IMG/VR virus record: IMGVR_UViG_3300034374_007168
Location: 1 to 47,765 of that record
Source: a virus
Strand: one strand, 5' to 3'
DNA length: 47,765 nt
A program made the position numbers and the translations under genes. This document shows, piece by piece, positions 13,101 to 36,024 of this stretch. A model generated the notes under the pieces. The model saw nothing but the letters and a program-made list of their open reading frames with translations, was not told where the DNA came from and ran no database searches. The number at the start of each line of letters is the position of its first letter. Positions within the stretch are counted from its first letter, which is position 1.

Positions 13101-16100
13101 GGTAAATTTAGAACAGCAAAGCCTTATAACAAGCTCCAAAGTTTTAGGAAACCTGCGTTTGCTTTACTTAAAAGAGAACCTTATTACAATAATCAAACTA
13201 AGTCTCTTGAAAGAGGATTTCTTAATAAAGACCAAAGTGAAAGGATTATAAATACTTTAGCTATCAAAGCTCTACAGCTAAAGTCTGAAAAAGGCTCTTT
13301 GTCTAAAAGAGATATATTAGACCTAATAAGGGATATGTCTAGTAACTACTATTCTGTAGAAAATTTTAGAACTGAGATAGATGCTTTGGTAAAATCTAAT
13401 AAGCCTAAAGCTGTTCAAATTGTAGGTAAGATTCGTAATATTTCTAAGTCTTTAAGTATTCCTGAGAATGAAAAACTTCTCACTGATGAAATAGAAATGA
13501 GGCTTCAAGTATTTGATATTAATACTGTAGAAGAAAATGCTCAGGAAGAAAGCTTTGCTGATGATGCTCCTGAAAGAGCTTTTGATGTAAACATTGCAGA
13601 GGTAGGAGGATTTGTACAACTGTCTAAAGAAATGAGAAAGTTTATAGCTTTCTCTTCTCAAGCTATTGATGAATTTGGTTTTGGAGAATTAGCAGATTTA
13701 TCTAATGATAAATTCCAAATGGCTTCAAACCCTTATACTATCTATACTGCTGTACAAAGAGGTTTGCAAAGTACTCACCCTAAAGATATGCTTTCTAAGC
13801 TTAAAAATTTAGCTAGAACCAATAGTAATGTAGCTGCTTTCTATGACCACCTAACTACAAATATAAACTTACAATTAGAGGACTTAGGCTTTGAGAATTT
13901 TGATTCTAGAGACTCTGAGTTACAAAAAGATATTGAAGTATTACAGCAGTCTGCTTTGTTCTCTACTTTTGCTTCTGCATTTGCTTTGGATAAAGCAGAG
14001 CAGTTAGTAGTCCTTTATGATAAAGCTAAAAAGGACTTTAAAACATTTAAGTCTAACACTAGAGATGTTAATATAACCCAGTTTAATGAATGGGCTAAAG
14101 CTTTCATCAATAGTGGTAGAAATAATATGCAGTATAGAGAAGAGAACTTAGAGCTAATTAAAAACATTAGAAGTGTTTTTACCGACTCTGAAAATATAGA
14201 AAGTGAAGAAAACCTAAGTAATGCTATTCAATCTATTAAAAATGCTTTTAGTGATTTAGGTATAAATCTATCTGAAGGGTATATAAGATTTAGCATCCTA
14301 AGTAATCATGTTAACACTCTTGAGCAGTATATATCTAAACCTGAAACACCTAATGAAAAAGATTTTTATGAAGGTTTACTAGAAGAAGTGTATTTATTTT
14401 CTGATGTAAAGCCTTTAACTAAAGATGATTTAACAGGTTTAAGTTCTTCTATAGCTGCACAAAACAATCCATTTGTAAAGAATCTAAATGAAAGTGATAC
14501 TAAAACAGATAGAGGGGCCATTGGTAGATTGCAGGCTATTGCAGAAAACAATGCTGTATTTGATGAATCTGTAGGTACTACTACTTTCCAAAATGCTAAA
14601 GGTCAGGATATATATTCTTTCATTCAAAAAACATATCTAATATCTGAGACTAAGAAGTGGAACAAAAGAACAGAAACTGCTAAGGAATTACTTAGAGCTA
14701 TTAGAGATAAAGTATCTGATGATGAAGGAGCTTTAATAGCTCAAGAGATGTTTAAGTATGAAGGTACTCCTTATCCTTACTATATAGCTAAGAAGTTTTA
14801 TCAAGCTATTAAACATAACCCATACCTAAATGGTGTAGAGTATCAAGTTAATAGTGATGGTAACACTACTAGCACTTTAATAACAGAAGATAATGAAGCT
14901 TACTCCTTAGCTGTGTTAAAGCAGCTACAGACATTCTTAATGGATGGTCTTAGAACTACTTCATTATCTGAAGTGGAAGTAGATGGAGAAGCTGAATTTG
15001 TAGAAGATACTTACAAAAATAGTGATGCTTCATCCTATGCAGAGCTAGATGGAGGAGGCATAGACTTAGTTAAACTAAGTATGTTTGCTGAAAGTATAGG
15101 CAATAAACTTAGAAAACTATTTAGACTTCCTGGAGCAAGAGGCTTGGCTAAAGATAATAGAGCTAAAGAAAGAACTCTAGCACCTTTTATTACACAAGTA
15201 AACTCTGATAAAAATACTCAAACAGCTACTAATCTTCCTGTACATGAATTTGTTAACAGAGATGGGGAATTAAATACTTTAGGTGTAGAGTTTTTGTTTA
15301 GAGACATACTACAGGAGTATGAGGATTTAGCTAATGTACAGCAAGAGATTAAGTTTATTTTAGAAAATGATGGTGTAGACAATAATGGTAATCCTGTTTT
15401 TGATATTGAAGGTTACCACTACAAACTAAGAGAAGATGGTACTAAAGACTATACAAAAGGTAAAGGCCATGATTTCTTCTTGTATAAAGCTGCACTACAG
15501 AAATATAGTCCTGAACTTTATCAACAGTTATTAGCTGATGCTAGAGAGGGCAAGCCTTTGACTAAAGAAAGGTTAGAACCTTTTATTCAGTCTTATGCTC
15601 AAGACCTTTTTGGTCAATACTTAGAAACACTTGCTTCTCCTGCTAGAAGTCTTATTAGAAAAGAAGAGACTACTAGTGATGAGAAAAAAACTCAAGAAGA
15701 GGAAAAATCTGAAGAAGCTGTTGCTGAAGAAGCAGAAACAGTAACAGTATACAAAAACAAAATGCTGCCTAAATTCTATGAAAAGAATGATGGTACAGTT
15801 AATATAACAAGGCTCAAAGAATACTTCTTTAATGATATGCTAGGCTCAATGGCTTTTGGAAACCTTATACATGGTAACCTAAAGATGAGCTATAAGGATA
15901 TGGTAGACTTTATCAAAAGAATGTCTAAAACAATTGCTGCTGGACCTCCATTAGGTACAGGTACTACTAAAGTAGCTGTAGTTAGGTCTGTAGAAGCTAA
16001 AGATAGATTTGATAAAGATAGTGTTGATGCAGCTAATATAAAAGACCTTGATTCACAAGATACTACAGATGCACAAAACATAGGAACATTAAGTTGGTAC

Positions 16101-19100
16101 AGAAGAAAGTATTTGACTTCACTAGGTAAGAAAACTAAAGCTGTTGATGAAATCTATAACAGATTAGAAAAAGGTTATAAGCTTACTCCTTCAGAGATTA
16201 AAACTCTAAAGGATGCAGGAGCCTTAGTTATGCCTAGAAAAATTGTAGGTACTAACCGTTGGTTCTATGATAAAACTTCTATTGTTACCTTACTAAGAAG
16301 CCAGACTTCTTATGTAGAGACAAAGGAAGATAGAGAGCAGCTAGACTATCTATATGATTTACTTTTTGATGCAAGAAGGGTAAATGATGTAAATAGAATG
16401 CAAGAGTTATATAAGCAAATCCATGCTATTTGGAAACCTATACCTTCTGAGAGATTAAACCATGATACTTTAAATTACTTAGAAAGTACTGGTACAGATA
16501 TTCTAGCTTATGACTCTTCAATGAAAGGAGCTAAGATTAATGTAGGCTCAATCTCTGGTAATAATGAAGTAGGATTTATTGTAGATTCTGAAGGATTTGA
16601 TGTAGACGATGAAGCTTTTAAAGAGCAAGTTAAAACAGATAACCTCAAGTCTAAAATTATAGACCCTATTCAGGCTTTGGCATTATTATTTTCAGAGCAG
16701 AAAAGTACAACTAAAGTATCTGTATTTGGCACAACTACTACTTTAGGTGACTTGCAAGATGCTTTTGAAAACCTTGTATCTCTTAGAACTGAAGAAGGTT
16801 TTAAAGAGATGCAGAAGATTATTTCTTCTAATGATAAGCCTAGGTACACATATCTTCTAAAGCTCTTTAAAGAAAGCTTAATGCAGACAGGTGCAGATTC
16901 CTATTTAATTGAGATGGTATCTGCTATGGAAGGAGCTGAAGATTTACCTAAGTACAACTTAAATATGCCTAGTACCATTGATAAGTTGGAGTCAATGTTC
17001 CTAAGCTTTGTATCTAAAAATGTGCTAAAGAATAAAGCTCCTGGGCATAAGTTTACTCTTAGAACAGACCATGGTACTGGTGTAATGGAGCTAGATGGTA
17101 AAATTATTACTGATAAAGAATTTAGAAGCAATCCTTCTAAGTATGCAGGTAAAGTAACAACTAGAAGATTAGCTTATAGAAAGAAAGATGCTGATGGTAA
17201 ATACTACACAGAAATTAAGATTTCTGCTCAGTTTGCTGAACACTTAAATCTTAAGAAGGGAGATGAACTTCCTCCTGAGATTTTAGAGATGTATGGTGTT
17301 AGAATTCCTACAGATGATAAACACTCAATGGGCTACTTTAAGGTAGTAGATTTCTTACCTATGGAAACAGGTAATGAAATTATTATGCCTTATGAAATTC
17401 TAAAACTCTCTGGTGCTGACTTTGACGTTGATGCAGAGTATGTAAGGGTAGTAGATTACTTTATAGATAGTAATGATAAAATACATTGGTTTGGTCAGTA
17501 CTTAAAAGCTGATAATGTAGAAGAAGCTATTAAGCAAGCTAGAGAAGAATATATAAGAGAGAAATCTCAACTATATGATGTAAAAGAAAATACCAAAGAA
17601 GCACTTCTAAAGAATAAAAAATATCAAGAAGCTTTAGAAGCACTAAATAATTTAAAGTCTGAACTTAATAAACTTAAGCCTAGTGCAGAGGAAGCTAAAC
17701 AACAAATTGCTGAGATTCTATCTAGTATAGATGAAGCTTTTGAAGAAGGTAATATTGAAGATGCTGATGTAACAGAAACAAGTGATGATAACCTAGATAC
17801 TAGTCTTAAAGGTATCAAGGACTTTAGTGAGCTAACAGCTCTAATGCTTGAAGAAAATGTTGCTAGAGGAAATCTTAAGGAAATCCAAAGGGTTTTAAAT
17901 CAGTATAAATCTAAGATACAAAACACTAAAAACTTTATTAGAACTGTAAGAACTGAAGAATCTATTAAGCAATTAGATAAACTAGGTTACTCAGCTTCAG
18001 AAGATGCTTTTAACCAGAGGTTCAGTGAGGTAATCTCTGCTAACAGAAGTAGCTTTGAGAAGGGAAATATCTCAGCTATAAATCCTTTAACTATTACAGA
18101 AATAAATAACCTTCTTGTACCTGTTGCAGGAGCTTTCATTTATAATGATACTAATGAAGATATTTCCAATGAGGTTACTTCTACAGAAGCATTTGATAAA
18201 TTAGAAAAAAGACTTAGAGAAGCTGGAGTTAAAGATAACACAGAAGTTACTGGTATCTATGACCCATTAAACAAAACAAATGCTAGTGTTAATAATGCTA
18301 CAGGTACAAAGAATATTGGACCTGTAGCTGTATTTAACCTCATATTTCAGAGATTAGCTAAAGCTGGAGTTAGCCTAAGTGCTGAATGGATGGAGGCTAA
18401 AGAAGTAGCTGAAACATTTAAAGAGTATGCAAAAGGATTTAAATTATCAAGGAATCAAAAAGATGATTCTATCCTAAATAATGTAGGTATTAGGGTTAAT
18501 AACCTCATAGGACAGAATCTTAATGCCATGACAGATAATGGTAAAGACCCTAAAGCTTCTAAGTTTAACATGGCTTATCAGCTTTTAGGTACTAGCCTTA
18601 CTCAAATGGGATTAGGTAAAGGGTTTAATGAAGTTGTATTATCAGGTATGCAACCTGCTGTTGTACAGCTTGTAAATCTCATTAATGCTGATAGCTCTCC
18701 TATTAAAGAAGGAGAGTACTCACAAGGTTTTTTTAAGTTAGTAGCAAAAACTCTAGGAGAATACCAAGGAAAAGATACTGAAGAAGTAGCATTAACTGAA
18801 GATAACCTTATCCAAGCATTACTATATGCTCAAGACCCCACCTCTTCTACATTAACTGAAGCCCAATATAACTTTATACAAGTTAATGCTTTACAAACCA
18901 TTAAGCTGTTTAAAGAAGTATCAGATTTCTTAAGGAACTTTACAGACATTATAGGATTAGCTAAAGGAGCTAAACCTACATTTTCAGAGAATTATAATGT
19001 TCAAGAGTCTATTAAGAACTTAGGTCTTAGAGTTGTACTACGCAAGGATGGCAACCCTCAAAATCTTAATGACTATTCAATAGAGCATGTAGAAGGCTAT

Positions 19101-22100
19101 GCAGCTAGAGACTATCCACTTGACCTTTTAGACTTAGTTAAGAAGGATAAAATCTTATCTACTAATCTAAAAGCTCAGACTGCTATTATTAACCATGAAT
19201 CTCCTAAGTTCTTCTTACTAGAAGCAAAACCAGCAAAGGATATTGTAGAAGTTTTAAAAACTTCTCTAAGACCTAATACTATGGCTATAGATGATAAAGC
19301 CAAAAAGATTCGTAAATCTTTGCTGTCTTTCCTATCTATGAGGGCTTATAAGCATCAGTATGCTAATAAAGTAAAAGGTTTAAATCTTACTAAGTTATTT
19401 GACCCATCGTATTTACATGAGTTGTATGCAGAGGTATCTGCTTTAGATGAGGTTGGAAGTAATGAGTTTCTTGGAGCATTGCTTCCTGAGGTTATTCCTT
19501 TCAAGAATAAAGCTACTAGATTAGATGGCCACTCTCTGTACAAGATGAGTCTTAATACTAGAACTAAAAATAATTCTGACTATGTACAAAAGCTTATGGA
19601 TTCTTTTAGAGAGCTTTACACTTCTGAAAATCCTAAAGCTAGACTATTTGCAGCTAGAGCTTTCTATTACCTATTAATGAAAGATGGAGGACTATTTAAA
19701 AATGATAGCTTCATAAGACAGATAGCTCCTCATTACTTAACTAATATTTCTAATTCTCTTGATGAAGTACAAGACTTATTTGCAGGGTTATCTAATAAAA
19801 CCTTTGTAAGAGTATTTGGAATATCTAAAGGAGAACTTATCCAAGAATTTGTAGACCTTTATGCTAGATATCAGCCTAATGGCTATGACCTTAGAACTAC
19901 TAGCAGTAAGAATCTCTTTAAAGATTACTCAAAGGATGAAGAGTTTAAAGCTTTTGTAGAAGAGCTTAAACAAGATAAGGAAGCAGGGAATATTACTAAA
20001 GAGCAGCTTATACAAATTATAAAACAAAACTCTCCTGTATTTAAGGATGATAGAAATGGTGTTATTAGATTTGACTTATATGCTGGGGTAGAAGTAAAAC
20101 CTTCTGGAGCTTTTAGTAGCAATGATAAGATGAAGATGGGAATTAACGCTCAAGCAATAAAGGGTACAGGTCTTGTAAGTAAAGGTTCTAATGGTAAATT
20201 AAACTATCCTGCATATTTTAAAATTGTTGAGTTCTCTCCAGAGGGAATACCTACATCAAGAATATATAGACTATATGCTGTACAAAAGCAGAGGTCTAAA
20301 GTAAGTATTAAAGATGGTCTTCCAGAAGCTAGTGATACAGTTACTCTAAATAAGGATGGTAACTTGTTTAATGAAGGTACTGATGTGAATGGAGTAGCTG
20401 CTTATTACAAAGCTGTTAATCCTATACTAACTAAAGAAATATCTCCTTTCTTCTGGACTATAGAGGATATTAATGCAGGAGTAGAGGCTTTAGACTATAT
20501 AAGGGAAGAGAAAGAAGAGCAAACTACTACTACTGCTGAGGAGCAACAAGCTGAAGCTACTACACTTAGTCCAGAGTTACAGAATTTCCTTAACCAACTT
20601 AGTAGTGTGTCTAAAGCTGAAGTTAAGCCTGAGACTAAAGCTACTCCTACTGAAAAAACTCCTGTAGAAAAGAAAGAAGAACCAAGTCCTGAAATAACTA
20701 AAGAGTATTTACTTAAACTATTTGACCAACTTCCTAATTCTGATAATAAAAACTTTATGAAGCCTATGTTTAATAGCTTCCTATCTGATATTAACGAGAA
20801 TAAAGATAAAATTGAAAGTATACTTAAGAATTTAGGAGGCAAAAACCCCTTTCAATCTAAATCCTCAGAAAAACAAACAATAAACAGAGAGCAACTTTCT
20901 TCATTACTAGATAAGCTATCCGCTAAGTTTGGCATAGACTGGGAATTTGACACTTCTATTCCTGGACTAGGACAATTTAAAAATGGTAGAGTTTTAATAA
21001 ACCCTGATAAAGCTAGGCTAGATACTCCTTTCCATGAATTTGCACACCCTTTTGTAGCTATTGTAAAACTTCAAAATCCACTGCTCTATAAAAACTTAAC
21101 AAAACAGGTTAATAATTCTGAGCTAGGTAAAAAGACTTTAGCTAGAGTACAAAAGAATTACCCAGAGTTATCTTATGAAGAACAAGTAGAAGAAGCTATT
21201 GTAGACCTTATAGGCCAATATGCTGCTGATTTAGAAAGTGTTAAACAAGAAAAAGGTTTATGGAATGCTATTAAGACTTTCCTTAGAAAAGTATCTGAGT
21301 ATATTAAATCCTTGTTAGCTGATTCTAAAAAAGCTATTATACCTTCTGAACTAAATCCTGAGACTACATTAGAAGATTTAGCTTCTATGTTAGTAGTAGA
21401 TAATCCTGTTAACCTAGGAAGATTGGCTAATAGGACTTACAGAAGTACACCAAAAGCTAGAGGTACTATCAAACCAGGAGTACAAGAACTATTTGATTCT
21501 AATCCTGAATTAGCTAACCAAGTATATGAAGCTTTAGGGTTTGTTAAAGGTATAAATGAACTAAAAGTTCAAGATTTTAAAACTAAAATTGGAGAAGCTA
21601 CTCAGTTAGAAGAGCAAGTTAATAAACTTAAAAAATATGTTGAACAGTTTAGAACTGCTTATTTTGTAGTAAACATAGATGAAGATATCCAATCTGATAT
21701 ATTCTTTATAAAAGAAGAAGCTGAAGAAGCTTTAAAAGAATATAATAATAGAGGTAATTTAAAATTTGAATTAGAAACTACTGTTGGATTAACAGAAAAA
21801 GAAATTGAAATATATAAAGATGTTATAGACTTTTTAGCAGAAAATCCTGACCAAAATCCTTTAAATGAAGAAGAATATACAGGTGCTAAAAAATTAGAAG
21901 CATATTTAAAGTATAAGCATGAAATTACTTCTAAACAAATTAGAAAGGTATTAATAGGAAATAAGGAAAAAGAAAGATTAACAGATTTTATAACTATAAA
22001 TTTAGAGTTAAGCCAAGCACAGAAAATAGAAGGAGAATCAGGATTACCAAATAATTTAGTTGAGTTAGAGTTATCTAAAATAACCCCACAACAAAAACAA

Positions 22101-22634
22101 CAAGCTCTACAACTATACTCTCAATATTTAGATACTATATTTCCAGATAGTAAAGTAAAAGATATTGTTTATCATGGAACAAATGCAAAATTTGATAAGT
22201 TTGATAAATCTTTCTATCAAAGTGGAGCAGATTATATTTATTTTGGTAAATTAAATACACCTGGTTTTAAAAGTCTTTCAAGAACAATAACTGCAATAAT
22301 TAATTTAAAAAATCCTTCTACTTTTATTGATAATAATATTAATAAAGTAAATAATGATGATGGATTTATAGAAAATTATAGTAAAAATTTTATTCAAAGT
22401 TTATCAGAAGAACAGTTTGAACAAGGAGAATTTTTAAATCAATATGGTGTTGAAAAACCAGAACAAATTCACATATTAGGTTCTCAAAAAGATATAGAAG
22501 GATTTAGAGGGTTTGTAAATAATCAACTGCAAGCTCCTATGGAATCTACAGAAGATAGAGCTACTACTTTATTTAGTACATTTGTAAATGTAAATGATGC
22601 AGATGTATTAGAACTACTTAATAATTGTAACTAA
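7158..22634 (+). CDS. Giant virion RNA polymerase polypeptide with two zincin domains and a C-terminal ADP-ribosyltransferase-like domain (5158 aa)
   Basis: ATG at 7158 follows a 58-nt gap. N-terminal hydrophobic, Gly/Ala-rich segments lie near residues 128-155, 207-230, 328-350 and 484-498. Charged coiled-coil-like sequence covers about 550-920. A first zincin motif HEAFH is at 1870-1874, with a downstream EEQMAE (1929-1934) that could give the third ligand. RNA-polymerase features follow: SMKGAKINVGS at 3121-3131, RIPT at 3382 and GADFDVDAEYV with the DxDxD triad at 3421-3425. This matches the double-psi beta-barrel catalytic loop of YonO/crAss-like virion polymerases, which enter the cell with the DNA and transcribe early genes. 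A second zincin HEFAH is at 4626-4630. The C-terminus carries VYHGT (H5006), Y5026/Y5028 and PEQIHILG (E5102), an ADP-ribosyltransferase-like H-Y-E arrangement. Polymerase identity is strong; membrane insertion, proteolysis and ART activity are inferred. Confidence 0.9.
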   Translation: MWEFNEATGEWEYIDNPNAGNTNDDAFFNTYAPNVSPMEEQFKQYERIKEFEEAYPEQDFFESTGEEPILSPADPAFKPKRLTGEAAERYREYVEKTGQTPYIGADIEDLFAEDQSVADQWANGSIKFLGKTATNVAGGLLMIPGLVYGAATGSFKNVYDNAFQRALDDANAAMDEYLPNYVRKEVEDYSLLREMFTANFWANDVLSGMSFVAGAVLTEMLTAGMATPVALGRTTRALKAFTKTSKVGDATRRLNTLGNLNTADEVLGGLRKIGTGTFYEAGVEARHYADEARTQFIEDFIKENGREPSEVELAEAMDKIYNVANGVFAANSALVSVGNMITLPTTFGPKLPGKIGRALKQEKDKVAKGLTKTENLSNKQLARASKRTNTPIEELKKQEYIKKSDYQSNYRKAFNKVYNVAERPVAEGIFEEMGQGTINATALDYVAGYLDVENKQEQVDLAESFAKGLAETYGSKEGWKEGILGAIIGGAGFVGPSSTGKGLGWQGGIWESLGKDKLDPLRDEYILEADASNPKDRIKALVEKVASQHKANQEYSEALESGDMFSAKNAEHEAFFSEVEFRMRLGDYQAVETMIEEYTSELSDEDFMSMFGYENMSDEDISRRKDEVKQSLLTRARSIRKNINKAKTVGSAFNEDIRRALAYSMSSVDNLDEREASLAKEIAENLNIDERSLMDAMRFNNAVKGSKGWLNTYEEELNSLQEAEAKLTKEQLKKSPNEKAIEEATAKVEKQRARVDVLVEREYEARKANTKKADIEASYLDFDAFKEEVDNVINLKKEVEKYYFDNKFDIEQKLKDLEKLAARRQMFVNEVNRLASKKGAEAFNDSIKELLDEAAKFTAIEEQAASDLGMTTAGISVNPMVAQEYKLRNVQEKLYDTIGKRLNKASISDPDGSMTAETPTEEEELPDLGQEQEQANPAVAAWIKEFNEGMPPSYTKEDTLDVKIGKTKAKLKYAKEKLEALKRRAGLTGTENQAAFNEYLESGKLQKFIGDIEALIKNLENSPTSEKSLPILFTSSSISEVFISDDFVDAEGKEALGNMTPAEIAKSMTVVIEDYAEGGVQFSSDRNPAIQITKGVTGQTGKGAYVYVTYKGKKVRIGGLADPNRFTMPDGSKFSIDNFNHVKLLNPSFVAIENGNLVLTKQGEVFTENFNAMVSLFDKLTKGEEITPEFIKKTFFVKSRFGYNSLKDELLENRPSLEEYLDNSKKEVSVAYSYKEKGKEVSKSDTIVVSRRADRLDIYVKEGNSWRLLNEEDKAYRAIQTLYENSIKANPNLEGVNSQFALLYPGSTKGTVGMASLGFPSVTAPLEEDGVPEIVDGILKAAEEQVTNKKSRKEGEEIKPVTVKDSSGNNLFLSIKTSAQDKDGNYIKSNSSEAEISVVSYEDNDTVKVQLQLSSPGSKEKAFKAFINLKLSVKDGKLYFFNEEIKSLKTLIEKINSQIKYYHEQNPENQGVLDTAGKVIKIGNILKKIDAVNDENTAENLSQIKLHSAPVFKLTLNARSRTYKKKVEKEESGQDTSKSDRDKAKQAFKEKIKGIPIEQLKDKAQVDMLLQALKQQHGLTDEDIAELRSAIKGRLLLSSGEAVPGGEKPESTATDTKDDVEKAQRQLDNVESKLNPNANHPKFNVGQKHDVGNIYDVRDFKDERKDTTQEGVDVITKIHKPAEVDADGNLTERAEVEVTFFDSYEQAEEFINAQYNKYKAIAEERLAKANAELAPLESTPTQQNIPQDTIGNLQNQIDEGLALGTLVENSPEHIELERRLAELKSKDEGDEAPFSISQTEAKEKIDIKKAEQTLARMLNMRTPENPNGIFSMDDVRNLLNNVRNNGITWGAFYNNVIYLSKKAGVGTEYHEAFHAVFRTLLSPTQINSYYFAARKAYGNPTLQDLNDLRNSSSMFADLTRLELEKLWLEEQMAEAFKKYALEQEQKPKGILGILYHKIKKLLGFVKSNKNDLDILFQDIYSGKFRTAKPYNKLQSFRKPAFALLKREPYYNNQTKSLERGFLNKDQSERIINTLAIKALQLKSEKGSLSKRDILDLIRDMSSNYYSVENFRTEIDALVKSNKPKAVQIVGKIRNISKSLSIPENEKLLTDEIEMRLQVFDINTVEENAQEESFADDAPERAFDVNIAEVGGFVQLSKEMRKFIAFSSQAIDEFGFGELADLSNDKFQMASNPYTIYTAVQRGLQSTHPKDMLSKLKNLARTNSNVAAFYDHLTTNINLQLEDLGFENFDSRDSELQKDIEVLQQSALFSTFASAFALDKAEQLVVLYDKAKKDFKTFKSNTRDVNITQFNEWAKAFINSGRNNMQYREENLELIKNIRSVFTDSENIESEENLSNAIQSIKNAFSDLGINLSEGYIRFSILSNHVNTLEQYISKPETPNEKDFYEGLLEEVYLFSDVKPLTKDDLTGLSSSIAAQNNPFVKNLNESDTKTDRGAIGRLQAIAENNAVFDESVGTTTFQNAKGQDIYSFIQKTYLISETKKWNKRTETAKELLRAIRDKVSDDEGALIAQEMFKYEGTPYPYYIAKKFYQAIKHNPYLNGVEYQVNSDGNTTSTLITEDNEAYSLAVLKQLQTFLMDGLRTTSLSEVEVDGEAEFVEDTYKNSDASSYAELDGGGIDLVKLSMFAESIGNKLRKLFRLPGARGLAKDNRAKERTLAPFITQVNSDKNTQTATNLPVHEFVNRDGELNTLGVEFLFRDILQEYEDLANVQQEIKFILENDGVDNNGNPVFDIEGYHYKLREDGTKDYTKGKGHDFFLYKAALQKYSPELYQQLLADAREGKPLTKERLEPFIQSYAQDLFGQYLETLASPARSLIRKEETTSDEKKTQEEEKSEEAVAEEAETVTVYKNKMLPKFYEKNDGTVNITRLKEYFFNDMLGSMAFGNLIHGNLKMSYKDMVDFIKRMSKTIAAGPPLGTGTTKVAVVRSVEAKDRFDKDSVDAANIKDLDSQDTTDAQNIGTLSWYRRKYLTSLGKKTKAVDEIYNRLEKGYKLTPSEIKTLKDAGALVMPRKIVGTNRWFYDKTSIVTLLRSQTSYVETKEDREQLDYLYDLLFDARRVNDVNRMQELYKQIHAIWKPIPSERLNHDTLNYLESTGTDILAYDSSMKGAKINVGSISGNNEVGFIVDSEGFDVDDEAFKEQVKTDNLKSKIIDPIQALALLFSEQKSTTKVSVFGTTTTLGDLQDAFENLVSLRTEEGFKEMQKIISSNDKPRYTYLLKLFKESLMQTGADSYLIEMVSAMEGAEDLPKYNLNMPSTIDKLESMFLSFVSKNVLKNKAPGHKFTLRTDHGTGVMELDGKIITDKEFRSNPSKYAGKVTTRRLAYRKKDADGKYYTEIKISAQFAEHLNLKKGDELPPEILEMYGVRIPTDDKHSMGYFKVVDFLPMETGNEIIMPYEILKLSGADFDVDAEYVRVVDYFIDSNDKIHWFGQYLKADNVEEAIKQAREEYIREKSQLYDVKENTKEALLKNKKYQEALEALNNLKSELNKLKPSAEEAKQQIAEILSSIDEAFEEGNIEDADVTETSDDNLDTSLKGIKDFSELTALMLEENVARGNLKEIQRVLNQYKSKIQNTKNFIRTVRTEESIKQLDKLGYSASEDAFNQRFSEVISANRSSFEKGNISAINPLTITEINNLLVPVAGAFIYNDTNEDISNEVTSTEAFDKLEKRLREAGVKDNTEVTGIYDPLNKTNASVNNATGTKNIGPVAVFNLIFQRLAKAGVSLSAEWMEAKEVAETFKEYAKGFKLSRNQKDDSILNNVGIRVNNLIGQNLNAMTDNGKDPKASKFNMAYQLLGTSLTQMGLGKGFNEVVLSGMQPAVVQLVNLINADSSPIKEGEYSQGFFKLVAKTLGEYQGKDTEEVALTEDNLIQALLYAQDPTSSTLTEAQYNFIQVNALQTIKLFKEVSDFLRNFTDIIGLAKGAKPTFSENYNVQESIKNLGLRVVLRKDGNPQNLNDYSIEHVEGYAARDYPLDLLDLVKKDKILSTNLKAQTAIINHESPKFFLLEAKPAKDIVEVLKTSLRPNTMAIDDKAKKIRKSLLSFLSMRAYKHQYANKVKGLNLTKLFDPSYLHELYAEVSALDEVGSNEFLGALLPEVIPFKNKATRLDGHSLYKMSLNTRTKNNSDYVQKLMDSFRELYTSENPKARLFAARAFYYLLMKDGGLFKNDSFIRQIAPHYLTNISNSLDEVQDLFAGLSNKTFVRVFGISKGELIQEFVDLYARYQPNGYDLRTTSSKNLFKDYSKDEEFKAFVEELKQDKEAGNITKEQLIQIIKQNSPVFKDDRNGVIRFDLYAGVEVKPSGAFSSNDKMKMGINAQAIKGTGLVSKGSNGKLNYPAYFKIVEFSPEGIPTSRIYRLYAVQKQRSKVSIKDGLPEASDTVTLNKDGNLFNEGTDVNGVAAYYKAVNPILTKEISPFFWTIEDINAGVEALDYIREEKEEQTTTTAEEQQAEATTLSPELQNFLNQLSSVSKAEVKPETKATPTEKTPVEKKEEPSPEITKEYLLKLFDQLPNSDNKNFMKPMFNSFLSDINENKDKIESILKNLGGKNPFQSKSSEKQTINREQLSSLLDKLSAKFGIDWEFDTSIPGLGQFKNGRVLINPDKARLDTPFHEFAHPFVAIVKLQNPLLYKNLTKQVNNSELGKKTLARVQKNYPELSYEEQVEEAIVDLIGQYAADLESVKQEKGLWNAIKTFLRKVSEYIKSLLADSKKAIIPSELNPETTLEDLASMLVVDNPVNLGRLANRTYRSTPKARGTIKPGVQELFDSNPELANQVYEALGFVKGINELKVQDFKTKIGEATQLEEQVNKLKKYVEQFRTAYFVVNIDEDIQSDIFFIKEEAEEALKEYNNRGNLKFELETTVGLTEKEIEIYKDVIDFLAENPDQNPLNEEEYTGAKKLEAYLKYKHEITSKQIRKVLIGNKEKERLTDFITINLELSQAQKIEGESGLPNNLVELELSKITPQQKQQALQLYSQYLDTIFPDSKVKDIVYHGTNAKFDKFDKSFYQSGADYIYFGKLNTPGFKSLSRTITAIINLKNPSTFIDNNINKVNNDDGFIENYSKNFIQSLSEEQFEQGEFLNQYGVEKPEQIHILGSQKDIEGFRGFVNNQLQAPMESTEDRATTLFSTFVNVNDADVLELLNNCN

Positions 22635-30013: not shown

Positions 30014-30194
30014 TTTTATATACTGTTACTGAGTTAGTTACTTTTTCTGCATTCTTTTCATACAGCTTGATTCTTTCTTTTATCTCTTTTAGTGAGAGCT
30101 TTCTACTAAAATAAATGATAGTCTTATCATTTAAAACGTGTTTCACCTTTTTACTAAGGTCAGGGCATGGGGGTATCACTTTATCTTCTGTCAT
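30006..30194 (-). CDS. Small basic protein of unknown function
   Basis: 62 codons from ATG at 30194 (an in-frame TTG lies two codons upstream at 30200). It is lysine-rich and probably helical (LSLKEIKERIKLYEKN). No family recognised. Overlaps with the RusA-like gene (14 nt) and the nuclease gene (8 nt) suggest it is translated as part of the operon. Confidence 0.6.
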   Translation of the reverse strand: MTEDKVIPPCPDLSKKVKHVLNDKTIIYFSRKLSLKEIKERIKLYEKNAEKVTNSVTVYKND

Positions 30195-30618
30195 AATCAA
30201 CTTTTAAAATTACTCCTGGGTTCTTAGGATTTATGGAATAGTACAAACCTTCAATTTGTAGGGGATAAGGGAGTAAAAACCTCATAGAATCATCTTCTAT
30301 ATAGTTGTGTGCTACTAACAAGTCCTGAATTATTTGTGTAGCATTATTGAAGTCAAAATCTCTTTTAGACTTCCTAATAAAATGAAATCCCATGTGTATA
30401 GGATACTCTAATTCAGTAGGGAAAGTAGCTAAGTACTTTTTAAAGAGATTTTCCCTTCTAACATATTCTTCTACTACTTTATCTCTTACTGAGTATCTTT
30501 TGATACCCAGGTCTTTTAAGTAGCTTACAACTGTTTTAGAAGGAAAAATCCCTCTTGAGGTTTTTACCTTAGAATTTTTAAGAGAAGGTACATTACCTGG
30601 TATAAAGAATTTATGCAT
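30181..30618 (-). CDS. rusA: RusA-like Holliday junction resolvase
   Basis: 145 aa, the family's usual size. The N-terminal FIPGNVPSLKNSKV matches the beta-strand plus PxxKN-type start of RusA proteins. The acidic catalytic set is seen as KRDFDFNNATQIIQDLL (D87, D89, D99) and YIEDDSMRFL (D109, D110). RusA dimers resolve four-way junctions and branched replication intermediates. It lies just downstream of the ubiquitin-like cassette and upstream of the PD-(D/E)XK nuclease, overlapping both neighbouring genes. Confidence 0.85.
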   Translation of the reverse strand: MHKFFIPGNVPSLKNSKVKTSRGIFPSKTVVSYLKDLGIKRYSVRDKVVEEYVRRENLFKKYLATFPTELEYPIHMGFHFIRKSKRDFDFNNATQIIQDLLVAHNYIEDDSMRFLLPYPLQIEGLYYSINPKNPGVILKVDYDRR

Positions 30619-31429
30619 TTACTTCCTCCTCTTCTACTTTAGATTTTACATATTCAACAAACTCATCAAATGTAATATCATTTTGTATGGTTGAAACATA
30701 GTCTTCTTTTTTCATATCATCTCTGCCTTTAATTTCTAAACCAATCTTTTGAGCATGTTTTATCATTTTCCATAAGCTTTTTATTAGCTGGCTACTTAAC
30801 AAAAAATCTTCATCTAAAAGAGGAGGGTTAGATACTTCTAATTTAAAAAGACCTGGAATACTTAAAAACTCATCTAGACCTAGACCTAATTCTTGCATTT
30901 TTTCCTCTCCTAATATTTCTCTTACTAAGAAATAAATAAAAGGAAGTTGCATATAAGATTTATCTATAGTAAGAGCAGCTAAAGGAACTGCTAATAATGA
31001 ATCTAAGTAAAGTAAACTCCCATGTACATAACAGATACCATTGTTAACAATATCAAAAGGATTAGCTAAGGTTTCTAACCTAACCTGATGAGTAGAAGTA
31101 TAAGTACGTACTTTACAATTGTTATTAAACTCTAAGTCAGGAGTTAGTAAGACATTTAAGTTTTCTTTAAGAAGAGTTGTAAGGTTCTTCAAGAATGCTA
31201 TTCCTGTATATTGTTCTCCCCCATTAATACTTATACTTATTCCAATTTGATAAAAAGTAGGAGTTATAACTAAAGAAGGCAAACTATTATATTCACTATG
31301 ATTTAGAAATACTCTTCTTTGCAAAAGATTTCTGTCTAGAATTTTTTTACCATAAATAACTTTACTCCTATCAGTATTGATTTTATAAGTAGGAGGATAT
31401 ATATTCCTAGTTTGTACAATGTTAATCAT
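30611..31429 (-). CDS. Unknown protein linked to the ubiquitin-like cassette, 272 aa
   Basis: No family recognised with confidence. Its ATG overlaps the TGA of the E1-like gene (ATGA), so it is translationally coupled to it and is probably a cassette partner. The sequence looks alpha/beta with no cysteine cluster, hence no RING-type E3 signature. Two segments look structured: residues about 45-85 (SLPSLVITPTFYQIGISISI and following) and a hydrophobic GSLLYLDSLLAVPLAAL near 135-155. The C-terminus is charged (EFVEYVKSKVEEEEV). The PRTRC cassettes of other mobile elements also carry extra proteins beside Ub-like, E1 and JAB, and this could be the equivalent of one of them (such as PRTRC protein B), but the match is not evident by eye. 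Confidence 0.65.
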   Translation of the reverse strand: MINIVQTRNIYPPTYKINTDRSKVIYGKKILDRNLLQRRVFLNHSEYNSLPSLVITPTFYQIGISISINGGEQYTGIAFLKNLTTLLKENLNVLLTPDLEFNNNCKVRTYTSTHQVRLETLANPFDIVNNGICYVHGSLLYLDSLLAVPLAALTIDKSYMQLPFIYFLVREILGEEKMQELGLGLDEFLSIPGLFKLEVSNPPLLDEDFLLSSQLIKSLWKMIKHAQKIGLEIKGRDDMKKEDYVSTIQNDITFDEFVEYVKSKVEEEEVNA

Positions 31430-32121
31430 AATGTTACAGTTTCTAGCATGTTAAAGATTTCATTTTCTACACTAAAAGGAACATCCCTAATATGTTCTCC
31501 TACAGCTATATTAAAGCAATGGTTTGTAAACAAAGCTACCATCTTAGAGCCAATCATAAAGCTATTGTGGGTAGTACCTTTAAAACCACAAGGCAAGTTT
31601 GCAGCTTCACTACTAGGAAATAGAGTTTTTTCATAATCCTCTATTCTATTTGGAGTAACTGCATATATGAAAAACTGCTCTGCTGTTAGTCTACCATCTA
31701 TAAATATTGGAGGTGTACCTTCTTCTTGGTGTTTATCACAGTTTTGTTTAAATACTTCAAACATTTGTTCTCTAGCTTCCATATTATCAAAACAACTAAA
31801 CATCACTGGAGTAGAAGGTGTTTGCAAAGTAAATAAGTCTGGAACTGCTTTAATGAAATAACGTGAGTAGTTTTTACATAAGTTCATTACTGCTTCTACT
31901 TTAGACTTATCCATATCCTCTTTGCCAAAAAGCTGATTAGATAAATTATGCCTGTTTACTGTATCGTTGTCATATAAAGTTATAGACCTAGGTCCTATTC
32001 TGGACATAAGAAATGCTACAATGGAACCTATACCCCCAGCCCCTCCGATAGTTACATCAAGGGACTGGGCAGTAGGTAACCATGCAGCATCCTTAAAACG
32101 GGAGTTATAAGAATTTTGCAT
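31426..32121 (-). CDS. E1/ThiF-like adenylating enzyme of a ubiquitin-like system
   Basis: 231 aa, the size of a minimal ThiF/MoeB-type domain. Seen: nucleotide-binding GGAGGIGS (residues 26-33), ITLYDNDTVNRHNLSNQLF (D51, D53, N59; the usual NLnRQ is NLSNQ), K74, the FDNMEAR metal/ATP site (D112) and LPCGFKGTTH with a candidate thioester cysteine C178 before T183/T184. E1-like enzymes adenylate the C-terminus of a beta-grasp modifier and, if a catalytic cysteine is present, form a thioester. It lies 14 nt after the JAMM peptidase gene and overlaps the 272-aa gene. Neighbouring Ub-like and E2-like genes argue for protein conjugation rather than thiamin or molybdopterin synthesis. Confidence 0.88.
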   Translation of the reverse strand: MQNSYNSRFKDAAWLPTAQSLDVTIGGAGGIGSIVAFLMSRIGPRSITLYDNDTVNRHNLSNQLFGKEDMDKSKVEAVMNLCKNYSRYFIKAVPDLFTLQTPSTPVMFSCFDNMEAREQMFEVFKQNCDKHQEEGTPPIFIDGRLTAEQFFIYAVTPNRIEDYEKTLFPSSEAANLPCGFKGTTHNSFMIGSKMVALFTNHCFNIAVGEHIRDVPFSVENEIFNMLETVTL

Positions 32122-32135
32122 ATTTATTTATTTAT

Positions 32136-33335
32136 TTAGTACACATGTGTGAAATCATAGTCATCGTCTAGAATTTCATCATCGTCATAGTAGATGCTGT
32201 TTAAAGCTTCATATAAATCTGACAGCACATCTTCTTTATCTGCTTTTGCTATAGCATCATTTGAACTTACTTCTACTAAAATATCTAAAGCCTGACCTAT
32301 AAAATCAGCTTCTTGAGTTTGAGAAACTGTACTAGGGAAGAATTTTCCTCCATGGTTGCTGGCAATAGAGTTAATAAACCAATCTACCATATCATCTGCT
32401 TTACATAGACCTTTACCTAAAACTTCTTTATAAAACTTATCCAAGGCTACTAAAACACCACTATTAAGGCTGTTAGTATTATTTTCTAAAAGCTTACAAA
32501 TGAAATTAAGTAATTCGTATCTACTGTATTTATATTCAGTGTTAGCAGGTACTTGATTATTGAAGTAGTTATAAGGATTACTATATGATGAACTTTGTGT
32601 AACAGTTTTTGTTTTTCCAAATCCAACAACTTTCTTTTCTTCCTGAGCTTTTTTAATAATGGTATCTACTCTATTATTAAATAGGTTATCTAAGTCAAAG
32701 GAAAAAGTAAGAGGTACTTCTACAATTACACTATTTTCTACCTCATTTTCTTCTTCTTTAGAACTAATCCAATTACCATCTTCATTCATATACTCAGAAA
32801 GATAAGATTTGGTTTTGTTTTTTACCAAATAAGCGACTTTACCTGTAACATCTCCAGCATTATTAACAATGATGGAAATACAGAAATTAGACATAGCAGC
32901 GTACTTATGCAAAGTAGAAGTATCTGTACCACTAAAGAATACATTCATATCTACATGAGAGTGGATAATACCCATTTTACAATCTTCTAATACAGGGTTA
33001 TTATCATAAGCATCAATAATAGATTCATCTACCTCAAACTCTGTATATGAAGGCTCTCCCTTATGCATAGGAAGAATATCTATAGGCTCTAACTTAAAAG
33101 TATCAAGATTTATAGGATGTCCTTCAGTTTTACAAAAGATTATACCTGACCATTCTACGTCATTGATACTTTTACATAAATACCAAATTTTCGCTAATAT
33201 CTCTTGGGAGAGATGTACTTTCAATCCTTTCTCTTTCACCAAGGTCTTGTAAGTACTTTGATAAGTGCTTGAATAAGGTTTCAACGTATTCTCTTGGGGG
33301 TAGGGTTGCTGTTGTATCCAGTAATTTGTTTTCAT
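32136..33335 (-). CDS. JAMM/MPN-family metallopeptidase (deubiquitinase-like)
   Basis: The JAMM zinc site is complete: VEWSG (E61) and GIIHSHVDMNVFFSGTD (H125, H127, S135, D138), the H-x-H-x7-S-x2-D pattern. JAMM enzymes remove or process ubiquitin-like modifiers. A second half (about 200-398) with Ser/Asn-rich linkers and a strongly acidic tail (DDDEILDDDYD) is not recognised. The start is uncertain: TTG at 33341, ATG at 33335 (used here) or GTG at 33239. The MPN fold seems to begin at KGLKVHLSQ, so the GTG would suffice and the preceding Gln/Tyr/Ser-rich codons may just be the alternate frame of the E2-like gene. With the ATG the overlap is 164 nt, with the GTG 68 nt. Confidence 0.87.
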   Translation of the reverse strand: MKTNYWIQQQPYPQENTLKPYSSTYQSTYKTLVKEKGLKVHLSQEILAKIWYLCKSINDVEWSGIIFCKTEGHPINLDTFKLEPIDILPMHKGEPSYTEFEVDESIIDAYDNNPVLEDCKMGIIHSHVDMNVFFSGTDTSTLHKYAAMSNFCISIIVNNAGDVTGKVAYLVKNKTKSYLSEYMNEDGNWISSKEEENEVENSVIVEVPLTFSFDLDNLFNNRVDTIIKKAQEEKKVVGFGKTKTVTQSSSYSNPYNYFNNQVPANTEYKYSRYELLNFICKLLENNTNSLNSGVLVALDKFYKEVLGKGLCKADDMVDWFINSIASNHGGKFFPSTVSQTQEADFIGQALDILVEVSSNDAIAKADKEDVLSDLYEALNSIYYDDDEILDDDYDFTHVY

Positions 33336-34524
33336 AATCAATACCGTAATTTATAGGTTTATTTCTAAAAGTTAAGTAGGGTTTATGTGAACTATCTATG
33401 AGAGCTAAATTTGCAACATTGTCCAGCTCTCTACTTAATAAATACTCATTTTCATATTCATTATAATAGGAGTTAATAACATTGGTAAAAGAAGAAAAGG
33501 ATTCACCTGCATCAACAAGCATACCTACAGAAGGATAGATAAATGCATTAGTTCCTAAATTATAAGGCTCTTCCAGCATATCTATATTTTTGAAAGCCTG
33601 TTGTAAAAAATTAGTCAAGTCATCTTCATCTAAGTAATCATCTGTCGATAAAAATACATACCTTGAAAGATCCTCACCTAAATCTCTTAAATAAATATAA
33701 GGACCTCCATTCTCAGATTCCCAAACTAGAAGTTCATCAACTTGATAGAATAAAGATTCAAATGCTACTGCTTCAACTTCATTTAGGTTACTTGTACTAT
33801 GTAGCTCATCCACTAAGCACTGCAAATCTGTAGCTCCTAGACATAGGTTTCTTTTAGAAAAGAAATTCTCAAGACTTCTAGTAGCAGCATGAGAATGTAT
33901 ATAACCAGCTCCAGCTTGTTCAAAAGTACCATGAGAAGAAAACATCTCTATTTTATTTCTTAATCTTAAAGCCTCATAATTCAAGCTAAAAGGGTAGCAT
34001 ATATAGGAGTCAAAAATAGTTTCTGTATTACCATTTTCATCATCTATATCTATTTGAGGGTAATGTACTATTAGACTAATATTTTCCTCATTATCTAGTT
34101 TTAAATCTACTTTGTCTTCTCCATAAATTTCTTCAGCAGCTCTTACTATCTCTATTAGTCTATTGTAGTCATTTTTAAGAGAAGAACTACTTAAGAGGTC
34201 TTCCTTAAAATTTGTTAGGTCTCTATTAAATCTTAACTCTTTTTCAACTTCAAAAGGTAAAATGTAACAATCAGTTATTGTAAGACTATTAATTGTTAAA
34301 AAACCATTTACAATACGCAAATCATTTCTTTCTTTATTATAGGGGTGTATAGTCCCAGCTTGCCATATAATAAACTCTTCTGCTTCTTTGTTAAAAACTA
34401 AAGGAATAAGCTTTGTAGTTATATCTTCTTGTAATGTTTCTTGTTTGATAGAAAACAAAGAGTGCTCTTCAACAAATTCTCCAATAGGTTTCGGATTTTC
34501 TAAAGCATATTCTAATTCTGTCAT
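33172..34524 (-). CDS. Candidate E2-like conjugating protein of the ubiquitin-like system, 450 aa
   Basis: A central domain (about 125-300) has LIVHYPQIDI (H154), an acidic turn, FDSYICYPF, then GAGYIHSH (H210, H212) and RNLCLGATDL with C228. A histidine pair 16-18 residues before a CL(G) cysteine echoes the HPN...CL arrangement of E2/UBC folds and matches what I recall of phage and PRTRC-like E2 families. The HSH here is not a JAMM site, because no S-x2-D follows at the right spacing. The flanking N- and C-terminal regions are unrecognised. Position supports the call: first gene after the Ub-like gene and its hairpin, then JAMM peptidase and E1. Without the neighbours I would call it unknown; the E2 assignment is inference. 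Confidence 0.65.
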   Translation of the reverse strand: MTELEYALENPKPIGEFVEEHSLFSIKQETLQEDITTKLIPLVFNKEAEEFIIWQAGTIHPYNKERNDLRIVNGFLTINSLTITDCYILPFEVEKELRFNRDLTNFKEDLLSSSSLKNDYNRLIEIVRAAEEIYGEDKVDLKLDNEENISLIVHYPQIDIDDENGNTETIFDSYICYPFSLNYEALRLRNKIEMFSSHGTFEQAGAGYIHSHAATRSLENFFSKRNLCLGATDLQCLVDELHSTSNLNEVEAVAFESLFYQVDELLVWESENGGPYIYLRDLGEDLSRYVFLSTDDYLDEDDLTNFLQQAFKNIDMLEEPYNLGTNAFIYPSVGMLVDAGESFSSFTNVINSYYNEYENEYLLSRELDNVANLALIDSSHKPYLTFRNKPINYGIDYENKLLDTTATLPPREYVETLFKHLSKYLQDLGERERIESTSLPRDISENLVFM

Positions 34525-34547
34525 AGGCTTTTAATATGTAAAATAAA

Positions 34548-34577
34548 AAAGAGGGTAGCCTATTGACTACCCTCTTT
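34548..34577 (-). terminator. Terminator/attenuator hairpin between the Ub-like and E2-like genes
   Basis: A perfect 11-bp stem, AAAGAGGGTAG (34548-34558) and CTACCCTCTTT (34567-34577), with an 8-nt loop. On the - strand it is followed by TTTTTTATTTTAC, an intrinsic terminator. Only 23 nt separate it from the E2-like ATG, too little for a new promoter, so part of the transcription must read through. Confidence 0.85.
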
Positions 34578-34597
34578 AGGTTTAAGAGTACTGAAAA

Positions 34598-34996
34598 TTA
34601 AGCCAAACCTTCAGAACGAAGATTTTCCAAATCTTCTAGCTCTTCTTCAGATAAACTTTCATCTGGAATAGAACCATTAACATCTTCTAGAATATCTTCC
34701 AAAAGATTCATCAACTTAGTACGAATTTCTCTGATTTGAGAATCAGTGTATCTAGTGCGATTACCACTACCAGATTCAATTTTCTTCATGCTAAGAATGA
34801 CAGTAAAATTACCTTCAGGTAAAGAGGCATTATCAGATTCTAGAGTATTTCTAGTCTCTCTAACAATAGCTTTCATATCTGAAATACCTGAATAGGTTCC
34901 AGATAACTCTTCTTTAAGGTCACCCCAGTTAGTAGCTTCAGATTCAAAAGTTCTAGCAGAGGTAGATTGAGGAGAGATTACACGAATATTACGCAT
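34598..34996 (-). CDS. Ubiquitin-like (beta-grasp) modifier protein with C-terminal extension
   Basis: 132 aa. Order of elements fits a beta-grasp: strand MRNIRVIS (1-8), strand ARTFESE (14-20), helix WGDLKEELSG (24-33), strand MKAIVRETRNTL (41-52), then LPEGNFTVILSMKKIESGSG (59-78). The ending KKxxSG after a hydrophobic strand resembles other phage/PRTRC-type Ub-like proteins as I recall them. A helical, acidic extension (79-132) follows and ends SEGLA. Candidate mature C-termini are G76, G78 or G130. The JAMM peptidase encoded nearby could expose one of these, and the E1-like enzyme would then activate it. It follows the primase by 11 nt and is followed by a terminator, implying more transcript than its enzymes. 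Confidence 0.72.
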   Translation of the reverse strand: MRNIRVISPQSTSARTFESEATNWGDLKEELSGTYSGISDMKAIVRETRNTLESDNASLPEGNFTVILSMKKIESGSGNRTRYTDSQIREIRTKLMNLLEDILEDVNGSIPDESLSEEELEDLENLRSEGLA

Positions 34997-35007: not shown

Positions 35008-36024
35008 TTAAGGGTTTAAAAGATTAATGAGAATTTGTTGGGATTTTTGCTTTCCATGATTTTTAACTAAATCAGAAAAGTCTTTAGATTTATATTCATC
35101 AGGTATTTCAATCTGTTTGATTTTAAAAGTAGAAGCTATTTCCTTTCCATATATTCTTCCTCTATTTACTTCTTTGTTAAAATCATTATCATAAAGCAAG
35201 TATATTTTACTAAATCTTTGTTTTAACTGCTTAATGATGTGAGGCTTAGGTTCAGTGGTTTCTGCTTGTAAAGATACAGAATTTATCCCACTTACTTCAG
35301 TAATAGCCATCACATCTTTCAAGGACTTAGTAATTATTAAGACTTCTCCTGTATCAGGCATTTGTCTCCATCCTTGCCATACAGATTTATCCACATTGGA
35401 TATAAATCTTCTTTTCTTTTCAAAAGGTTGATAGATTTTGTAGGTATACTTTTCATCTTTATACTCTAGATAAGCATAAGCAGGACTTTTGCTATTATCT
35501 ACTTTTATTATATAATCATTAATAAATATATGTGAGCAACTGCTTACATTATATTTCTCTAAAGTAGATTTGCTTATACCAAAGCTAGACCAAAACCTTA
35601 AATCTTTAGGTGTAAAGTCCATACTTTTTATTCCTAGATGTACTGTTGAAGAGTATTTTTTGTATTCTTTGTCTTTTGGCAGTTCTTTCTTTACTCTATC
35701 ACCATTAGTTCCTTCTTTTATTAAACCAAAATCAAAAGCTACTTTTTGTAGACTCTGATAGTAGTTTAAGCCAAAAAGCTTAGATACAAAGACAAAACAA
35801 TCACCTTTTTCTTTAGTTGCAAAATCTCTAAACAAAAGCTTGCCCAATCTAGATGCATAAAACACACTAAAAGAAGGAATATCATCATTCCTTAAAGGAC
35901 TATTAAATGATGTATTTAGTTCTAGTCCTTGTATGTAATATGCAAATATTTGATAGTCTGATACTTTTTCTAATATCAGCTCTGAAGATAGTAAGTCGTA
36001 GTCAAGCTTATTAAGATTTATCAT
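35008..36024 (-). CDS. DnaG-type primase
   Basis: 338 aa. The N-terminal FNSPLRNDDIPSFSVFY...LFRDFATKEKGDCFVFVSKL layout is that of the CHC2 primase domain, but only one of the usual zinc ligands remains (C76), so zinc binding seems lost. The TOPRIM domain starts at EVLIITKSLKDVMAI (228-242), where the usual catalytic glutamate is replaced by a TKS sequence, and has the DxD motif in IYLLYDND (D279, D281). It would synthesise RNA primers for the adjacent DnaB-like helicase. It begins 8 nt after the hairpin that follows the SSB-like gene, so its initiation region abuts that structure. The altered TOPRIM first motif is notable, but I recall similar KSLKD forms in phage primases. Confidence 0.82.
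   Translation of the reverse strand: MINLNKLDYDLLSSELILEKVSDYQIFAYYIQGLELNTSFNSPLRNDDIPSFSVFYASRLGKLLFRDFATKEKGDCFVFVSKLFGLNYYQSLQKVAFDFGLIKEGTNGDRVKKELPKDKEYKKYSSTVHLGIKSMDFTPKDLRFWSSFGISKSTLEKYNVSSCSHIFINDYIIKVDNSKSPAYAYLEYKDEKYTYKIYQPFEKKRRFISNVDKSVWQGWRQMPDTGEVLIITKSLKDVMAITEVSGINSVSLQAETTEPKPHIIKQLKQRFSKIYLLYDNDFNKEVNRGRIYGKEIASTFKIKQIEIPDEYKSKDFSDLVKNHGKQKSQQILINLLNP

Follow-up and report, generated by a model that had tools for sequence, protein, structure and literature searches.

We identified a cassette of five adjoining genes on the minus strand (positions 30611-34996) of a 47,765-nucleotide viral DNA, IMG/VR record IMGVR_UViG_3300034374_007168 (the window, meaning this whole stretch), which comes from a crAss-like phage. 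The cassette lies between genes for a primase and a RusA-like resolvase and, judged from sequence comparison and structural modelling, very probably encodes a self-contained ubiquitin-like conjugation and deconjugation system. The predicted products are a ubiquitin-like protein (Ubl), an E2-like protein, a JAMM metalloprotease, an E1/ThiF-like adenylating enzyme and a hypervariable protein designated X. An earlier note, made from the letters of the window alone, had proposed this set, and the coordinates and strand that it gave for the five open reading frames (ORFs) are all correct.

The genes form a strict ordered unit in related phages, a point on which the earlier note had staked its proposal. 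The order Ubl-E2-JAMM-E1 is found in all 85 non-redundant complete loci; 84 of these were counted with family hidden Markov model (HMM) profiles, and the remaining locus (L073), which has a divergent Ubl (5972-6217, ending ...TKAGN), was read by eye. Because this ordered unit is combined with near-invariant catalytic residues, the cassette is not a chance arrangement.

The Ubl precursor and its predicted maturation

The first gene (34598-34996; PHROG 15560) encodes a 132-aa protein that consists of a 76-residue Ubl domain (34769-34996), ending in ...KKIESG, and a C-terminal helical tail (residues 77-132; 34598-34768) that is predicted to be released. The AlphaFold2 (AF2) model of the domain has the beta-grasp order, with a predicted local distance difference test (pLDDT) score of about 91 over residues 1-70. 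Past residue 70 the model continues as a low-confidence linker containing the Ser-Gly site, followed by helices at residues 85-107 and 117-128. A Foldseek search with the model matched ubiquitin, UBX, SUMO, FAT10, ISG15 and BfUbb, with a probability of 1.00 to ubiquitin, SUMO and UBX, so that the beta-grasp fold claimed for this protein is borne out by the structural test the earlier note had named.

The end of the domain is K-x-x-[SA]-G or a close variant in all 83 Ubls detected by HMM, with the glycine followed in every case by one or more residues. Conjugation calls for a C-terminal glycine; Gly76 is invariant and yet never terminal, so cleavage is needed, and the predicted point of both cleavage and conjugation is Ser75-Gly76 (codons 34769-34774). 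Seven Ubls have a one-residue tail (L013, L074, L078, L084, L097, L064 and L093) and four a tail of a few residues (L011, L012, L019 and L087); in all others it measures 54-217 residues. In six tail-less contigs (L011, L013, L074, L078, L084 and L097) the Ubl stop codon is also the exact starting point of a separate ORF (TAATG), 44-131 codons in length. For an ORF of such length to begin nearby, the probability by chance is 0.04 to <0.001 per contig, with the proviso that L074 and L078 are similar, so the six are not fully independent cases. In a seventh contig, L087 (crAss-like cr106_1), an HNH-type homing endonuclease ORF (5005-5520) directly follows the Ser-Gly codons of the Ubl, and a gene of its own (5536-5928) encodes the tail. 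Finally, the Ubl of the jumbo phages PhiXhv-12 and Ep032 has a native ...SGG end, and no JAMM was found genome-wide in these phages with two profiles, of which the Pfam one does detect the JAMM of phages crAss001 and DAC15.

Since the boundary always has a residue after Ser-Gly, the gene is split at this point, and the relative lacking a JAMM ends in Gly-Gly, the functional Ubl would end at the glycine and JAMM would be required where a tail exists. Together these features point to maturation of the Ubl precursor by JAMM at the glycine. Such a precursor recalls the ubiquitin-ribosomal protein fusions.

The candidate protease is encoded at 32136-33341, a 401-aa ORF counted from a TTG codon with an ATG at 33335. 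Its Pfam match is weak (Prok-JAB, 0.002, under the cut-off). However, the complete JAMM motif HSH-x7-S-x2-D described in the earlier note is present, with E63, H127, H129, S137 and D140 (numbered from the TTG) as the catalytic set, and the JAMM/MPN+ signature E...HxH-x7-S-x2-D is kept in at least 82 of 83 relatives. The gene overlaps that for the E2-like protein out of phase by about 165 nt (33172-33341), and a similar overlap is seen in most relatives. Of four interrupted loci, only L085 contains a group I intron by Rfam search (L085:7142-7354; RF00028, 69.8 bits), where its JAMM gene is interrupted. In two others (L098:6594-7604 and L011:5980-7082) the JAMM gene is divided between HxH and S-x2-D by inserts of about 1.1-1.2 kb, the L098 insert holding a 336-aa LAGLIDADG-like ORF; these are probably introns with homing endonucleases.

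The E1- and E2-like enzymes

The E1/ThiF-like protein (31426-32121, 231 aa) has the clearest relationship to known families. It matches Pfam ThiF (9.6e-15), and its strongest PDB profile matches are UBA5 (4e-13) and ThiF, with weaker matches to Cap2 (1.4e-5) and BubCD (5e-4). The adenylation domain elements GxGGxG, DxD, K and D are all present and the residues are invariant. The candidate catalytic cysteine proposed earlier, C178 (31588-31590), lies inside the adenylation domain and is found in 89 of 90 sequences.

The 450-aa E2-like protein (33172-34524; PHROG 15310) contains a UBC-like core (residues 112-280; 33685-34191) in which AF2 pLDDT is mostly 90-98, with flanks that are mostly of low confidence. 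The model of the core shows a helix at residues 114-134, four strands within 139-196, a loop bearing the cysteine, and helices at 233-243 and 252-267, which is the UBC order. The motif HSH...CLG noted earlier is present, and Y208, H210, S211, H212, C228, G230, E269, S270, G273 and P275 are near-invariant; the candidate catalytic C228 (33841-33843), G230 and the pair S211-H212 are each found in 84 of 84 aligned relatives. On the basis of the model and these residues the protein likely has a UBC fold. Protein X, which bears the motif NNGICYVHG, was also considered as the E2 and was dropped, as its cysteine is unconserved.

Sequence searches with the other cassette proteins were less informative. 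The Pfam search of the five proteins left Ubl, E2 and X without any family, and searches of Pfam, NCBIfam, PADLOC and PDB sequences with these three gave no meaningful match. Related PHROG families exist for four of the five proteins, every one of them annotated as unknown function. A Foldseek search of viral models with the E2 model gave significant E-values solely to uncharacterised viral proteins, crAss-like ones included.

Distribution, selection and possible targets

A tblastn search with E1 identified 78 phage records from Steigviridae crAss-like phages, Flavobacterium phages (Fipvunavirus) and distant jumbo phages. We found at least 202 relatives in IMG/VR, of which 80 were kept, and five E1 relatives in GTDB contigs; no close E1 was found in plasmids. 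In crAss001 gp79, gp78, gp77 and gp76 correspond to Ubl, E2, JAMM and E1, with gp75 as X; the DAC15 set is gp91-gp87, and FpV4 also keeps the order. The cassette genes of crAss001 and DAC15 are annotated as 'thiamine biosynthesis', 'metalloprotease' or hypothetical, and one GenBank record names the E1 an 'E1 enzyme family protein'. Neither ThiF nor ubiquitin is mentioned in the 2018 crAss001 paper or the 2021 survey of crAss-like phages. In agreement with the earlier note, no described function was found in the open-access literature searched, with subscription papers and preprints outside that scope, and an earlier notice of a phage conjugation cassette there is possible. New here are the SG|x boundary of the Ubls, the fission of the tail at that point, the Gly-Gly relative lacking a JAMM, and the contrast in selection described below.

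Protein X (272 aa, 30611-31429) overlaps the E1 gene by 4 nt (ATGA) and, as the earlier note had it, is coupled to this gene and has no assignment: it matches no Pfam family or PDB entry. Before redundant loci were removed, 97 loci were counted with an ORF next after E1. Between the window and a relative (L003), identity is 93% for primase and 97% for RusA, in contrast to 43% for E2 and about 40% for X. The ratio of nonsynonymous to synonymous substitution rates (dN/dS) in close pairs is 0.61-1.02 for whole E2 and 0.19-0.24 for primase, Ubl, JAMM, E1 and RusA pooled. For X it is 0.59-1.91, in pairs that share sequences and with confidence intervals for the closest pairs that include 1, so that strong relaxation of constraint may also be compatible with them. 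The contrast between X or E2 and the pooled conserved genes is significant (Fisher p 8e-5 to 5e-7). Within E2 the N-terminal part has a dN/dS of 1.26-1.72, compared with 0.30-0.52 for the UBC core. This pattern of fast-evolving X and E2 flanks beside near-invariant active sites suggests an arms race and fits a changing target.

We propose that JAMM would cut the Ubl precursor after Ser-Gly and free the helical tail, a step for which the comparative evidence is strong. E1 would then adenylate the exposed glycine and load the Ubl on C178, a cysteine placed as in UBA5, MoeB and ThiF, as homology and invariance of its residues indicate. The Ubl would move from E1 to C228 of the UBC-like E2, and the dN/dS contrast suggests that the fast-evolving E2 flanks and X select the target protein; X could thus possibly be a substrate adaptor. 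JAMM may also strip the tag. The likeliest targets would be host proteins, either defence factors or factors that a replicating phage must redirect. As the genes sit in the replication module, the cassette proteins are presumably produced while DNA is being replicated. That the targets belong to the host or a competitor is, in our estimate, an even call. The same measure of confidence, neither above nor below the midpoint, applies to the fuller proposal that this is the first complete ubiquitin-like conjugation and deconjugation pathway in bacterial viruses, an effector that would covalently tag host proteins, with swappable E2 flanks and X for target recognition and a JAMM-cut Ubl-tail precursor, and that is widespread among crAss-like phages from the human gut and from other environments.

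Besides the shared sequences and wide intervals of the close pairs, several points weigh against a conjugation system. The earlier assignment of a UBC fold to the 450-aa protein stands as regards model topology and the invariant cysteine, but the Foldseek search against PDB gave no match at E<=0.001; the first three ranks are UBC enzymes with E-values of 0.34-0.69. No E3-like domain was recognised in the phage cassette proteins. The usual arginine of N-x-x-R-Q is absent from E1, the position being N, G, A, P or T in this E1 subfamily and its relatives; the residue is typical of the superfamily but perhaps not essential, and its loss is a caveat for the predicted adenylation step. Alignments by hhalign of phage proteins with those of the cellular relatives described below are weak for E2 (E 0.043) and Ubl (E 0.18), although the functional motifs are in register. 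Lastly, the Gly-Gly Ubl lacking a JAMM represents a single lineage.

The genes flanking the cassette bear on the identity of the targets. The setting given by the earlier note is matched by PHROG on both sides, with primase upstream (35008-36024, minus strand; PHROG 12622, 1.4e-61) and the RusA-like resolvase downstream (30181-30618, minus strand; PHROG 1682, 7.5e-9). The assignment to crAss-like phages likewise agrees with the best matches of the window PolA and virion RNA polymerase subunit. A single 5158-aa ORF (7158-22634) adjoins the gene for the latter.

Given this location between primase and RusA/exonuclease, and the replication-type neighbourhoods seen in FpV4, Steigviridae and jumbo phages (DNA ligase and topoisomerase nearby), the same chemistry might act on replication or recombination proteins of the phage itself, timing replication rather than countering the host. 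SUMO and ubiquitin act on PCNA in an analogous manner. However, the putative replication substrates evolve slowly (primase and RusA in the comparison with L003) relative to X and E2, and co-evolution of the cassette with its own substrates does not predict slow primase and RusA genes beside fast X and E2. We consider this reading rather unlikely; host or competitor targets are favoured over the phage's slow replication proteins because the invariant active sites adjoin fast-evolving flanks.

Those flanks and X would also fit the varied targets of a superinfection weapon that attaches the tag to proteins of competitor phages, much as tagging of phage tails is reported for bacterial Bil. Among bacterial conjugation systems whose roles are known, the closest act against phages (Cap2 of CBASS, PMC10097602). 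However, these phages are apparently lytic and carry the cassette within their replication module, not in an accessory island, and the position of the cassette is nearly constant across distant clades, so we regard such a weapon as improbable. Slightly less probable still is a sulfur-carrier pathway in which a Ubl thiocarboxylate serves tRNA, nucleotide or DNA modification: E1 resembles ThiF/MoeB and bacterial Ubl, JAMM and E1 operons for sulfur metabolism are known (Iyer 2006, PMC1779556), but an E2-like protein with an invariant cysteine is always present, the E1 cysteine is also kept, the neighbouring genes include no recognisable rhodanese or sulfurtransferase, and X and the E2 flanks evolve fast.

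If the cassette is a conjugation system, it would place in the hands of phages a type of machinery whose tested roles in bacteria are mostly anti-phage. It is carried by many members of a highly abundant group of human-gut viruses, including the cultured crAss001 and DAC15, and would offer a tractable viral ubiquitin-like pathway in laboratory hosts in which tagged proteins are directly testable.

Comparison with known conjugation systems

Among PDB sequences the phage E1 matches UBA5 of the UFM1 system best, and the UBA5 cysteine is also within the adenylation domain. UFM1 has a single C-terminal glycine and a short tail, as in the phage Ubl. However, it is processed by UFSP, a cysteine protease in place of JAMM, and the E2 motif differs.

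The earlier note named PRTRC, Bil, Bub and CBASS as bacterial relatives. PRTRC, Bil, CBASS and group 6d of Iyer 2006 each have at least one defining feature that the window cassette does not. The E1 profile matches to Citrobacter BubCD and to Cap2 of CBASS are far weaker than those to UBA5 and ThiF. In CBASS the E2 is fused to the E1 and the substrate is cGAS-like, whereas E2 and E1 are separate genes in the window; the five proteins match the PADLOC E1-E2 models of type II CBASS through the E1 ATP site only, and the window was not searched for a CD-NTase. The antiphage operon Bil (BilABCD) resembles the cassette in having Ubl, E2, JAMM and E1 as separate genes. However, BilA contains a pair of Ubl domains and BilD forms a pseudodimer of inactive and active adenylation domains (IAD/AAD; PMC11354881), compared with a single Ubl domain and a single-domain E1 of 231 aa here. 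PRTRC and group 6d of Iyer 2006 share the five-gene composition of Ubl, JAMM, E1, E2 and a fast-diverging protein (PMC1779556), but the group 6d E2 lacks the histidine before the cysteine that is near-invariant in the phage E2. The phage E1 reaches 28.6 bits with PRTRC_ThiF, whose cut-off is 144.75; the other PRTRC models gave no match, and searching pMOL30 and the plasmid ThiF matches for PRTRC genes yielded nothing.

Two further types of cassette are related to that of the window. In PhiXhv-12 and Ep032 the Ubl, E2-like (HPH...CLG) and E1 genes are adjacent and E1 belongs to the same subfamily, but JAMM is undetected, the Ubl end is native Gly-Gly, and the E2-like protein of about 893 aa has a long Cys-rich RING-like C-terminus (L114:4280-6958 and L117:4247-6925), so that it may be an E2-E3 fusion. 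The proteins of the two phages are near-identical here even though their named hosts differ (Xanthomonas and Erwinia); Ep032 is flagged UNVERIFIED. No further cassette of the PhiXhv type was found in IMG/VR.

The phage E1 profile also recovered cellular loci (L109, 2e-24, and L111, 1e-15) with Ubl (...KVQGA and ...KIEGAR), E2, JAMM and E1 in the phage order. L109 is a contig from a Thermoplasmata-assigned metagenome-assembled genome, and the archaeal assignment may be a binning error. A search of 392 Planctomycetota genomes with the L109 E2 gave matches in 14, with up to five copies each, and in many of the resulting loci (L124-L143) Ubl genes lie just upstream of the E2-RING gene. The Planctomycetota cassettes (L111, L118, L120, L122 and L124-L143) and L109 have the phage-like Ubl-E2-JAMM-E1 order where the contig shows it, an E1 that shares the GR[LM]...C motif, a Ubl ending in K-[IV]-x-G and at least one residue, and an E2 with HPH...C.G. 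In contrast to the window and crAss-like E2, their E2 has Cys-rich RING-like repeats (Cys-rich in L111 and L120), hypervariable X is not seen, and the Ubl ends in EG or QG where the phage end is SG. The tie between the phage cassettes and these RING-fused Planctomycetota systems bears on the spread of ubiquitin signalling.

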